Notes under the pieces: generated by a model
Databases searched by the model: none
What the model saw: the letters and a program-made list of their open reading frames with translations, nothing else
Told to the model about the DNA's origin: nothing
Origin: Sulfurisphaera javensis
Lineage (GTDB): Archaea > Thermoproteota > Thermoprotei_A > Sulfolobales > Sulfolobaceae
Direction: 5' to 3'
DNA length: 64,000 nt
Assembly (NCBI RefSeq): GCF_041154675.1
Contig: NZ_AP031322.1
Span: forward strand, 496,001-560,000
Program-made: the position numbers and the translations under genes
In this document: piece by piece, positions 4,016 to 60,586 of the stretch
Numbering within the stretch: the first letter of the stretch is position 1
Layout: each line of letters opens with the position of its first letter

Positions 4016-4106
4016 TGCGGCCGCCGGGATTTGAACCCGGGATTACTGGCTTTCTTCGTCTAGCCTTGGAAGGCCAGCGTCCTAATCCAGGCTAGACGAC
4101 GGCCGC
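4016..4106 (-). tRNA. tRNA-Gly (TCC) with a 15-nt intron
   Basis: Full cloverleaf on the minus strand. Acceptor GCGGCCG pairs with CGGCCGC (4017-4023 and 4100-4106), discriminator A is at 4016, the T-arm is CCGGG-TTCAAAT-CCCGG, the D-stem is GTCT/GGAC and the anticodon stem is CTGGC/GCCAG. The loop reads C-T-TCC-A-A once a 15-nt insert after position 37 is removed, the canonical archaeal intron position. A TATA-like TTTTTAAAT lies about 24 bases upstream on the minus strand. Ten intron bases (GGCTAGACGA) are the exact reverse complement of tRNA positions 8-17 (TCGTCTAGCC), so the precursor could form an alternative hairpin. Confidence 0.95.
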
Positions 4107-4209
4107 ATTATAAAATATGAAGTTGCCAATTTAAAAATTTGTTGTTGGAAAAAGTTTCCCTAAAGGATATTTCTTTTAGTGTAAATTATTTTTAGCTTTC
4201 TTATCTCAA

Positions 4210-4360
4210 GTGTGAATGATTAATTCTCGAATAGTGAATGGAACTTAGGATGTGCGATTTTCCGCGAAATGAAGAGAGAAGAATGATTAGGTAACTATGG
4301 CTTCGATGAAATCAGATAGCCGATGTTATATGCTGTCGCCTCTAACTAATTTACGCTTTT
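4210..4360 (+). ncRNA. Structured RNA of unknown family, copy A
   Basis: Non-coding, about 150 bases, paralogous to 59985-60157. The two copies share aattctcgaata (4222-4233), gagaagaatgatt (4276-4288) and cttcgatgaaatca (4301-4314). The last two are spaced identically (25 bases start to start) in both copies. Stems: GGCT/AGCC (4299-4302 with 4318-4321) closes a loop containing the conserved tcgatgaaatca, gtaac pairs with gttat outside it, and attag/ctaat is outermost. A G-C pair here is A-T in copy B. A T-run follows at 4357-4360. An AT-rich TATA-like stretch lies at 4181-4194. Strand is inferred from the T-run. No known family is recognised; it is not RNase P, SRP or an obvious C/D RNA. Confidence 0.55.
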
Positions 4361-4910
4361 AAAATTAGTAGGATACAAAATATAAGGGATTTAAAGATAT
4401 GCAAACTCACTTAATATATGATTCTCTTTCGAAATATAAGGTTTTATAGCTATTTACATATATCTAGATTGTATAGTGTTAAAACTTTCCTTTACTAGAT
4501 TCTGTCTATAGGAAATTTTTATTAGAAATAATTTGCTACATTCTTCAAAAAGTATCTATAGAATTTTCGATGATTAAATTAAATCCTCTTGTAATTGGTA
4601 ATTATTAAAAGTAAAAATTTATTTTTAATGGAGGGAGTTATGGTTTTAATTTTTTTCGTTTTATTTTTGTTTAAAGACTCTCATAAGTGTTTTAAAATCT
4701 TTTAATTTATTCTTTTAATCTCTGAACTATTTTGATTTTTAATGAACAGATATCCTGTGTTGTTTAAACAATGGTAAGTAAGAGTTTCTATTAACGTAAG
4801 TTAATTTATTAGATTAGAACTCTATTTAGTCGTTTTTTGTACTTATGTCTACCTAAATAATCCTATAAACAAATATATAGTGTTATATTATATTTAGATT
4901 TTGACCCCGA
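4361..4910. other. Long AT-rich intergenic stretch before the glutamate synthase gene
   Basis: There is no convincing gene. One tiny frame (ATG at 4628 or 4640, stop at about 4703) encodes a 21-25 residue hydrophobic peptide and has a GGAGGGAG ribosome-binding-like sequence before the second ATG. It is recorded as a weak possibility only. Near the right end, aaatatata (4871-4879) is a plausible TATA box for the TTG start at 4911. Confidence 0.4.
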
Positions 4911-32362: not shown

Positions 32363-33402
32363 TCAAGGTAGCTATTTTTGGTGTAGGAAATGTTGCTAGT
32401 GCTCTTTTACAAGGATTAGAATGGATAAAACAAGGTAAAAATTTGCCTGGTTTATTAGATCTTCCTTACTCTCCAGCAGAAATCGAAATCGTAAAGGCCT
32501 TTGATATAGATAAAAGAAAGGTTGGGAAAAAGCTCTCTGAAGCAATATTTATGAAACCAAATGTTGTAAACAAATATGTTGAAGTTAACTCAGATGTGAT
32601 TGTAGAAAGAGGTCCAACATTAGATGGTTTAGATGGCTCTTTAATGAATATTATTGAAGAATCTGAAGAAAAACCAGCTGATGTTGAAAGTGAATTAAAA
32701 GGTGTTGATGTTTCTATTAGTCTTTTACCAGCTGGAACTCAAAAAGCAAATGAGTACTATGCTGAAGCCTCTCTTTCAGCTAATACAGCTTTTATAAATG
32801 CCTCTCCAGCAGAAATAGTGATAAATTATTCTAATAAGTTTGCAGAACGAAAAATACCTTTACTAGGGGACGATTTACTTAGTCAAATAGGTGGAACTAT
32901 ACTACATACTGGTATAGTTGAGTTCTTAAAAAACAGAGGAGTAAAAGTTACAAGGACTTATCAAATAGATATTGCGGGTACAACTGAAACGTATGTTACA
33001 TTAGAGGATTGGAGAAAAGATTTAAAGAAGGGAATTAAATCTAATTTTATTGCATCTCATGCTGATGATGCTGAGGTTGTTGCAGGCACTTCAGATTATG
33101 TGGAATTTCTTGGTGATAGAAGAGTAAGTTATATGGTTATTGAGGGATATTATTCTTTTGGTGTTCCTTTCAGAATTGACATTTCCTTCAAAACACAAGA
33201 TGCACCGAATGCTGTTGTTCCTTTAATAGACCTGATAAGGATAGCTAAATTTGCAAAAGATAAGGGAATTGGTGGTGCTATTCCTCAAATATGTGGTTAT
33301 TATTTTAAGAGACCGCCAAAAATTTATTCAAGCTTAGATGAAGCTAAAAATGAGTTAATGAAGTTTTTGAAAATGATGACTGAACCCCGGTTAGATAGAT
33401 GA
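32359..33402 (+). CDS. ino1: myo-Inositol-1-phosphate synthase
   Basis: Converts glucose 6-phosphate to inositol 1-phosphate for archaeal phosphatidylinositol-type lipids. 347 residues. NAD-binding [12 protein letters not shown] (8-19), [33 protein letters not shown] (about 172-187) and [11 protein letters not shown] match the family. TTG start overlaps the nuoN stop, so it is translated as part of the complex I operon. A C/D sRNA overlaps its last codons. Confidence 0.9.
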
Positions 33403-33422
33403 TATGGCCGTGTGAGAGCTGA
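33373..33422 (+). ncRNA. C/D-box sRNA overlapping the ino1 stop codon
   Basis: Plus strand: C ATGATGA (33373-33379), first guide of about 11 bases, a degenerate D' (no clear CTGA before 33398), C' GATGATA (33398-33404) containing the ino1 TGA stop, guide TGGCCGTGTGAGAG, D CTGA (33419-33422). GC-rich against its surroundings. The second guide looks usable; the first is doubtful. Confidence 0.5.
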
Positions 33423-34529
33423 TCAGATCTCTACAATTTCGGCTTCTTCTATCAATTTTTTATAATCAATGTTAGCTTCTTCTTCAGCTTTTATTACTTC
33501 CTCTAATTTGGCGCTTGTTGTTGACTTAGAGGAAATTGCACAATACTCAGGCATTTTTGATGAGTATTCATAAGTACCAATCTTTCTAGAGAGTTCTATA
33601 ATTTCTTGTTTATCAAACCCAATTAGGGGTCTAAATATGGGTATATTTATGTTATACTCAGTTACAAATAAGTTCTTCATCGTCTGGGAGGACACTTGAG
33701 ACAAAGACTCTCCGGTAGTTATTGAGTACGCATTAATTTCTTTTGCTAACGTCTCTGCTGTTCTGTACATTATTCTCTTTAATGTTATGACTCTAATATA
33801 ACTATTCACTTTTGTTAAACTAGTAAGCACTTTAATTCCATCTACAAAGAAAATCCTAATTTTATGTCCACTATTCCATTCTGAAAGTATCTTTGCTTCC
33901 TCAATTACAGTGTTCTTATGAATTTCACCACCTAACTTAAAATTCAAGAGAATAACTAAAGCTCCTCTTTTCATCATCATCCATGTAGCAACTGGTGAAT
34001 CAAATCCGCCAGAGAAAAGTACAACTGTTTTTCCAGTAGTTCCAATTGGGAGACCTTGAGGGCCATGAAAGACTTTATCATACACATAAGCATAATCTTG
34101 TCTAATATCTACAAAGATTTCAACATCTGGATTTTCTAAATCAACACCAGAAGAATAAGGATATAATGTGCTTCCAATTACTTTTGCTGCATCTAAGCTA
34201 GTAAAATTGTGCTTTCCAGTTCTTTTAACTCTAATTGCAAATTTCTTTCCTTTTACAACCTCTGAATATTTATTCCTAACATATTCTGAAATATCCTTCA
34301 AACTAGAAAAAGAGATAACATCTGCTGGAGAATATGAAGAAATTCCAAAAATTTTATTTAGTTTGTTATAGTCTCCTTCTACGTCTAATATTATGTAGCC
34401 TTGATCTATTTTAGCGTTTTTAACATTTATCACATTTTTTATGTTATTTATTAATGAATATTCAAAGTTAGCTCTTGACCTAGGTGATTTAATTCCTATC
34501 TCTCCAGCAAGTCTAACAATAATTAACAT
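33423..34529 (-). CDS. thiI: tRNA sulfurtransferase ThiI
   Basis: Adenylates and thiolates tRNA uridine-8, and in some organisms aids thiazole synthesis. 368 residues: an N-terminal ferredoxin-like and THUMP region (about 1-165) with the FAIRVKRTGKHNF motif (about 96-108), then a PP-loop ATPase with SGGFDSP (about 173-179). There is no C-terminal rhodanese domain, as usual in archaea. A PEYCAISSKSTTS segment near the end matches the ThiI C-terminus. Convergent with ino1; the sRNA box D borders its stop. Confidence 0.9.
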   Translation of the reverse strand: MLIIVRLAGEIGIKSPRSRANFEYSLINNIKNVINVKNAKIDQGYIILDVEGDYNKLNKIFGISSYSPADVISFSSLKDISEYVRNKYSEVVKGKKFAIRVKRTGKHNFTSLDAAKVIGSTLYPYSSGVDLENPDVEIFVDIRQDYAYVYDKVFHGPQGLPIGTTGKTVVLFSGGFDSPVATWMMMKRGALVILLNFKLGGEIHKNTVIEEAKILSEWNSGHKIRIFFVDGIKVLTSLTKVNSYIRVITLKRIMYRTAETLAKEINAYSITTGESLSQVSSQTMKNLFVTEYNINIPIFRPLIGFDKQEIIELSRKIGTYEYSSKMPEYCAISSKSTTSAKLEEVIKAEEEANIDYKKLIEEAEIVEI

Positions 34530-58036: not shown

Positions 58037-58136
58037 CGCCGCGGGGAGGACTCGGACCTCCGACCACCGGGTTTCTATACTTTTTGAATATTTTCTATTT
58101 AACAGCCCGGCGCTCTGCCAGCTGAGCTACCGCGGC
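58037..58136 (-). tRNA. tRNA-Asn (GTT) with a 27-nt intron
   Basis: Minus strand cloverleaf: acceptor GCCGCGG/CCGCGGC (58130-58136 with 58038-58044), discriminator G at 58037, D-stem GCTC/GAGC, anticodon stem CCGGG/CCCGG, T-arm GGAGG-TCCGAGT-CCTCC. The loop reads C-T-GTT-A-A once a 27-nt AT-rich intron after position 37 is removed. Mature length is 73 bases, discriminator G as usual for Asn. Confidence 0.95.
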
Positions 58137-59822: not shown

Positions 59823-59984
59823 TGTAAAATAGATTTAATCTTCTTAATATATAAAAAGATATTATCTATTCTTTTTTTGTAATTATTAATAGAAATTAAA
59901 TCGTGTTTTGATATAAGGTTGAATGCTTAGCTGTCAAAAACTGTTTCAGTTAAAGTGTGAAATCAGCATTTCTTAGATCTTTAT
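59823..59984. other. AT-rich spacer before RNA copy B
   Basis: Nothing clear except a possible T-rich end for the orphan gene (59871-59879, CTTTTTTTG). No open frame. Confidence 0.35.
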
Positions 59985-60157
59985 CCTGATGTTGATGATA
60001 AATTCTCGAATAATGATGCAGAGAGAAAAAGAAACGTAAGATGCGTGGGTTTCATTTGGGGTTTCCCCGCTAAAGGGTGGAGAAGAATGATTTAAGAACA
60101 ACGACTTCGATGAAATCAAAAGGTCTAGAGTCGTATACGTTTCTAATCATTTTTTAT
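59985..60157 (+). ncRNA. Structured RNA of unknown family, copy B
   Basis: Paralogue of 4210-4360. It shares aattctcgaata (60001-60012), gagaagaatgatt (60080-60092) and cttcgatgaaatca (60105-60118). Stems: AATGATT/AATCATT (60086-60092 with 60145-60151), gaac/gttt (60096-60099 with 60139-60142), ACGACT/AGTCGT (60101-60106 with 60129-60134). The inner stem differs from copy A by a compensating G-C to A-T change. An extra GGGG-TTT-CCCC hairpin (about 60058-60068) extends the middle. T6 run at 60150-60155 as terminator, which supports the plus strand. Confidence 0.55.
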
Positions 60158-60586
60158 TAGTGTATGAAATTTAATGAGAGTCAAACTCTCTGTCATAATA
60201 GTCTTAGGATAATATTCTAAAGATGCCGTAAGATATCTTATATGTTTCTAACCATAAAAAGTCAGAATCACGTATTCTCTTTATATCAAATTATAAAGGA
60301 CTATAATGCCGTTTTATTTTAAAATATGCTTCACGTCCTTGGTAGGACTAGTTCTAGGTTTATAAGCTCCTCCTCTTAATATAGATGCACTAGCTCTTTT
60401 TACAGTCTTTGTATTACTATACAAATGAGTTATCTATAGTCTTTCATGAAGATTAAATGAAAGTTTATATATAATGAATACTAATTCTATAGGTAAAGTT
60501 ATAGGAATAATTTATACAAAATGAGGACATAATGTTATACTCTAATAAAAACTAGATGAATTCATGGTCTTTTGTATCAAGAATTT
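60158..60586. other. Non-coding stretch with small hairpins
   Basis: Holds GAGAG-tcaaa-CTCTC (60176-60190) and GTCCT-tggt-AGGAC (60335-60348), the latter followed by a TATA-like GGTTTATAAGC (60358-60368) and a T-run (60397-60401). A short transcript is possible but unsupported otherwise. No open frame. Confidence 0.35.

Follow-up and report, generated by a model that had tools for sequence, protein, structure and literature searches.

Probable relics of gene-less IS607-type elements with a TnpB guide-RNA region in Sulfurisphaera javensis, and their short relatives in the Sulfolobales

The stretch of Sulfurisphaera javensis DNA analysed here (64,000 nucleotides, hereafter the window) holds two related non-coding loci, copy A and copy B, whose parts and neighbouring tRNA genes are listed in Table 1. 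The two copies share three exact blocks, AATTCTCGAATA (12 bases, at 4222 and 60001), GAGAAGAATGATT (13 bases, at 4276 and 60080) and CTTCGATGAAATCA (14 bases, at 4301 and 60105), each of which occurs exactly twice on the plus strand of the window. All three are collinear and the last two start 25 bases apart in both copies, so that the order and equal spacing described in an earlier note on this DNA were confirmed. The local alignment of A with B scores 28, whereas 1000 dinucleotide shuffles gave a mean of 10.1 and a maximum of 21 (a comparison that is not corrected for relatedness) and other pieces of the window used as a control reached at most 17; the similarity is therefore not a product of chance. 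The earlier note was also right that no open frame lies over either locus, as zero ORFs of at least 80 amino acids overlap the two places, and a coding fragment in A or B was rejected for want of an ORF, leaving only non-coding DNA derived from tnpB. A tblastn search of the window with TnpA and TnpB as queries gave zero matches at 1e-3, and neither copy matched Rfam, RAGATH-18 included, at the gathering or at a relaxed threshold. The bounds proposed earlier (4210-4360 and 59985-60157) proved too narrow for the elements as delimited in Table 1.

Table 1. Parts of the two elements and adjacent tRNA genes, in positions of the window (CM, covariance model; LE, left end; RE, right end; G000, the genome of S. 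javensis)
Feature	Position	Strand	Evidence
Copy A: decayed non-autonomous IS607 element (ISC1904-type), guide-RNA-only subtype (probable)	4141-4409	+	Family alignment, genome copies, CM 60.3 bits, E 3.8e-10 (A in training set)
Copy A: left end and tnpA promoter remnant, CC core and TATA box lost	4141-4194	+	LE alignment at expected distance
Copy A: remnant of hairpin H1 region (parental tnpB zinc-finger codons), stem lost	4205-4252	+	Arm duplex -2.3 kcal/mol
Copy A: 3' omegaRNA-like core and right end, RE ...AAACTCA versus ...AAACCCC; insert in common with L150	4247-4409	+	Family alignment, CM
Copy B: decayed non-autonomous IS607 element (ISC1904-type) (probable)	59930-60189	+	E 1.4e-16 to G000:2373535-2373701; CM 94.2 bits (B in training set)
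Copy B: left end GCTGTCAAAAACTGTTTCAGTTAAAGTGTGAA, TATA of promoter deleted, CC core mutated	59930-59973	+	0/500 shuffles as high
Copy B: hairpin H1 region, stem mostly gone	59974-60034	+	Arm duplex -4.1 kcal/mol
Copy B: 3' omegaRNA-like core and right end, RE ...AAACTCT	60038-60189	+	
Intron-bearing tRNA gene adjoining copy A (neighbour, outside the element)	4016-4106	-	
tRNA gene within 2 kb of copy B	58037-58136	-	

Each copy was confirmed to lie at most 2 kb from an intron-bearing tRNA gene. Among 21 family copies in the S. javensis genome, five (L154, L162, L164, L167 and L169) are found within 1.5 kb of a tRNA called by ARAGORN, against about 1.2 expected under an assumed total of 46 tRNA genes (Poisson p about 0.007). 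This proximity may not be pure chance; it demands no role of the tRNAs, and permissive intergenic sites suffice. Copy A was not found in the syntenic tRNA-gltB spacer of three sister species (G001, G002 and G003), where the tRNA and the genes on either side are nevertheless present, and it is therefore a lineage-specific insertion, or was lost in all three. The spacer differs in length from those of the sisters by about 80-100 bp rather than by 269, and the sister spacers are too diverged for an empty site to be read at base level. Similarly, the site of the short element L056 is without the element in G025, with flanks too diverged to read the junction, and the left neighbourhood of copy B is not syntenic in the sister species. 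Elsewhere in the window, a C/D-box sRNA, sR18 (Rfam RF01141, 47.9 bits), lies at the end of an ORF (33371-33424), and a non-coding stretch of 68 bases (60344-60411) shares 94% identity with G000:C1:571184-571251 and roughly 81-83% with places in three sister species; it is possibly a conserved small RNA or a repeat.

A search of the S. javensis genome with copy A returned seven further places at E <0.01, copy B among them, and a search of 60 related genomes with copy B returned many more. It was through these single-sequence searches, and not through a covariance model, that A and B were first linked to a family. A model built on 28 members, A and B included, found 18 copies in the S. javensis genome at E <=0.001 and matches in 23 of the 31 genomes of the taxonomic family; since both window copies are in the training set, their own model scores arise partly by construction. 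The earlier note had expected further homologues in Sulfolobales genomes, and this expectation was borne out by both kinds of search. Short forms were identified in the sequences of eight species (G000, G003, G010, G016, G023, G024, G026 and G027). Metallosphaera javensis carries two identical copies of 275 bp with different flanks, and in G026, where the short type makes up 11 of 17 sampled loci, copies at separate loci are up to 96.6% identical; the short forms have therefore moved recently.

Other arrangements of the same parts were observed as well. Three G026 elements of about 1.56-1.61 kb (L189, L190 and L193) have left and right ends and a full tnpB without tnpA. A remnant of the omegaRNA region and right end without TnpB is present in the virus SMV1 (Sulfolobus monocaudavirus; HG322870.1, about 607-746; L241:1948-2087; 84.1 bits, E 1.1e-15), and in SSV10 and Acidianus tailed spindle virus the same RNA region stands behind two adjacent ORFs that resemble full TnpA-TnpB elements.

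The better-preserved short elements are about 220-285 bp long, with sharp ends (GCC... and ...AAACCCC) that were located by matching to a consensus. In the aligned junctions, GCC starts 45 of 45 left ends and CCCC finishes nearly all of the 66 right ends, and the flanks are unrelated. Such ends agree with the GG cores and the low target specificity known for IS607, of which both ends and targets carry GG (PMC6188088). Apart from the CC core and a slight preference for A/T, the element flanks showed no outside target motif. The exchange cores are intact in L045, L046, L055, L056 and others. The left end, GCCGTTGAAAACTGTTTCC..., holds a TATA box, TTTAAATA, which precedes tnpA in the parents, and is followed by a short zinc-finger coding piece, AGATGTGGATG...TTCCCGAA, between pairing arms (hairpin H1); the 3' part comprises the last approximately 150 nt of tnpB and then the right end, ...AATGAGACCCAAACCCC. 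Judged by their sequences, the short elements are internally deleted forms of a transposon of about 1.9 kb of the IS607 family (ISC1904-type).

A TnpB ORF in several relatives has the 36 matching bases as its 3' end, directly behind its CPxCGW...CxxC zinc finger. In Metallosphaera javensis AS-7 (G023), elements of about 1.9 kb encode a serine-recombinase TnpA and a guided-nuclease TnpB. The parental TnpA matches the NCBIfam IS607 transposase with 190.8 bits (cut-off 110), and its closest solved relative is PDB 3ILX, 'First ORF in transposon ISC1904' (E 4.8e-63). The parental TnpB matches 'RNA-guided endonuclease TnpB' above the cut-off and has a Cas12f-like TNB domain; against the IS607_TnpB model it scores 37.9, far under the cut-off of 350. 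An IS200/IS605 origin, our first guess from the zinc finger of TnpB, was ruled out because the parents carry a serine recombinase. Left and right ends are common to the short copies and the parents L144, L145 and L091. The last of these (G000:C1:182000-187500) is the one place in the S. javensis genome with a near-complete TnpB of this kind; a second, different tnpB sits between its tnpA and tnpB and interrupts the element.

Measured against this anatomy, A and B are very probably decayed IS607 (ISC1904-type) derivatives that carry the tnpB 3' (omegaRNA) region. The left end of A is weak by itself (25 of 500 shuffles score as well) and is supported by a match of 69% to G000:1086293-1086467 that spans the left end to the core (E 1.4e-11). 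Intact exchange cores, by which a still-mobile element is recognized, are absent from both copies, A reading GTT.../...CTCA and B GCT.../...CTCT. Both have lost the TATA box, hairpins H1 and H2 and the CC cores at either end. The arms of H1 form a duplex of -5.8 to -19.3 kcal/mol in nearly all relatives, as against the weaker values of A and B (Table 1). The fold of each window copy is no better than that of shuffles (z 0.15 for A and -0.82 for B), and of hairpin H5 a part is retained in A (TAG-GTAA-CTA). An extra insert of about 45 nt (GCCTCTAACTAAATTTACG...) inside the omegaRNA region is common to copy A (4310-4370) and a subfamily (L150:1065-1246). Erosion has reached the ends, the promoter and the key hairpins of A and B, which no longer function as an intact short element might and are most likely inert fossils. 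Rather than a new cellular RNA gene, they are relics of a small gene-less transposon with ends and a TnpB guide RNA. The strong retention of the three blocks in such fossils may reflect late decay or some residual constraint.

The shared blocks of A and B are the best-conserved stretches of the RNA region of the family. In the family alignment, helix H5 has two-sided changes in five of its six pairs (CGGGGC-AAT-GCCCCG, TGG-GCAA-CCA, TGA-GTAA-TCA and TAG-GTAA-CTA are found), a count for which relatedness is not fully corrected, and sliding the H5 partner by 1-3 columns lowers the whole-structure pairing from 85% to 23-58%. Hairpin H1 lies on the tnpB zinc-finger codons in the parents, and its arms differ by lineage yet match each other (CCCCATCAC/GTGGTGGGG, CTTGCTACC/GGTAGCAAG and CCTTACCTC/GGGGTAAGG). 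Cognate arms reach a mean of -13.6 kcal/mol versus -8.4 kcal/mol for mixed arms, a difference found in 0 of 5000 permutations, again with relatedness not fully corrected. Applied to the unedited alignment, RNAalifold returned a weak consensus without a helpful covariation term (+0.34), which was outperformed by hand-placed helices H1, H2, H5 and a closing stem. The earlier note had built its case for a structured RNA on a stem read as GGCT/AGCC in A and GACT/AGTC in B. This stem has no two-sided change in the family and its middle pair forms in 9 of the 28 members; in copy B the homologous 3' arm is GGTC immediately past the loop and not the later AGTC, and copy A may be misaligned here owing to its insert. 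The compensating change is not a feature of the family, but may still be genuine between A and B. What stands of the claim is the covariation of other family helices (H1 and H5); for A and B themselves, which fold no better than shuffles, the structural claim was not confirmed.

The tnpB 3' region that runs to the right end is likely to be the omegaRNA of TnpB, given its position, its covariation and the published TnpB systems (PMC10640517, PMC10278001). TnpB and omegaRNA function has been described in a Sulfolobus relative (PMC10640517), the right end is known to be the boundary between scaffold and guide, and the mRNA of TnpB is processed by the protein itself (PMC10278001). In the family, this region occupies the tnpB 3' end up to the right end, where the window copies are homologous, and its structure covaries, with H1 and H2 gone in A and B. 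A trans-acting or protein-bound RNA, as the earlier note had proposed, is thus probably correct by origin, as a guide RNA; the window copies are unlikely to be functional RNA genes because promoter, ends and main hairpins have been lost. That note had weighed against its own reading a decayed insertion sequence or a protein-coding fragment, and it is insertion-sequence derivatives with a former coding fragment, the 3' end of tnpB, that were found.

An intact short element would most likely work as follows. Its left-end promoter would transcribe a short RNA across the scaffold and the right end into the host DNA, of which the part just beyond the right end would, by analogy with known TnpB biology, serve as guide. 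TnpB from an autonomous copy would bind and process this RNA and cut the matching element-free site, either after excision by TnpA or on the sister chromosome, and repair after the cut would restore the element and aid its retention; TnpA acting in trans would move the element. What sequence comparison supports in this account is the anatomy, the conservation, the covariation and the recent movement. The full proposal is that IS607 elements of the Sulfolobales have spread time and again as gene-less cassettes of promoter and guide RNA that use TnpA and TnpB of autonomous copies in trans, that protection and copying of the element depend on the guide RNA alone, and that the window holds two dead members. 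It is tentative, and we would give it somewhat less than an even chance.

A competing reading of the intact short elements, which concerns the mechanism of trans guidance and does not affect how A and B are identified, takes them for simple MITEs whose omegaRNA region is a mere passenger, kept only for its closeness to the right end that TnpA requires. For the transposition of IS607, TnpA is sufficient by itself (PMC6188088), and the S. javensis subfamily without H2 (A, B, L048, L146 and L150) has still reached several loci. Against this, H1, which is far from both ends and which a second deletion has set apart from the core, has been kept and remodelled by paired changes in several lineages after the coding function was lost. 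We consider the odds of the passenger reading to be close to balanced. For the window copies themselves, it is very improbable that A and B still serve the host as small RNAs, either regulatory or bound to protein and perhaps domesticated from a transposon. The exactness of three blocks between otherwise diverged copies, the covarying family structure and the partly retained H5 of A would fit such RNAs, but copy A is not at its syntenic place in the sisters, both copies fold no better than shuffles and have lost H1, H2 and the promoter, the stem of the earlier note is unsupported, and many more copies lie at unrelated sites. Continued use of A and B as guide RNAs in trans by the remaining TnpB of the genome is, in our judgement, extremely unlikely: a near full-length TnpB relative does persist at G000:C1:182-185 kb and the core blocks are retained, yet the element that bears this TnpB is interrupted by another tnpB and neither window copy has H1, H2 or a TATA box.

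Non-autonomous derivatives of TnpB transposons are already known. The elements described here share with ISC1904/IS607 transposons the left and right ends, the C-rich cores (GG on the other strand), a TnpA closest to ISC1904 ORF1, a TnpB with TNB domain and parents of about 1.9 kb in relatives, whereas the window copies are without tnpA, keep a remnant of tnpB only and have mutated ends. As in the SisTnpB1 omegaRNA/reRNA of Sulfolobus islandicus (PMC10640517), the RNA lies at the tnpB 3' end up to the right end, with hairpins near its 3' end and a variable guide beyond; SisTnpB1, however, belongs to an IS200/IS605 context with a TTTAA TAM, while the present RNA is IS607-type, stands alone behind a promoter and has no Rfam match. 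RAGATH-18-derived RNAs (PMC11061315) are likewise partners of an IS607 TnpB first noticed as an orphan structured RNA, but the elements here match no Rfam family and their TnpB is far below the IS607_TnpB cut-off. The closest described parallel are the PATEs of Haloquadratum (especially HqIRS71; PMC3119063), which are also archaeal and transposase-free and carry a C-terminal tnpB segment as non-coding DNA; they derive from an IS605-type element with near-terminal palindromes, in contrast to the IS607-type origin, promoter and covarying RNA helices seen here. The Sulfolobus MITEs SMN1 and SM3A (PMC3718332) are short, non-autonomous and dispersed in Sulfolobales genomes too, but depend on ISC1733 and ISC1058. 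Among the open-access papers searched, none describes IS607 elements of the Sulfolobales that bear a promoter and consist of guide RNA only, and little seems to have been written on the wider guide-RNA-only family. The novelty would lie in promoter-bearing elements of this kind in several species, which may work with TnpB in trans.

The false lead of a new orphan RNA family has thus been replaced by gene-less transposons with a promoter and a covarying guide-RNA scaffold in several Sulfolobales species. The family alignment maps one hairpin onto the zinc-finger codons of tnpB and provides a covariance model able to find such elements. If the RNAs use TnpB supplied in trans, they would represent a selfish guide RNA that spreads without a nuclease gene. 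Should this be true, it would bear on the origin of stand-alone guide RNAs, and perhaps of CRISPR-like split systems, from transposons.
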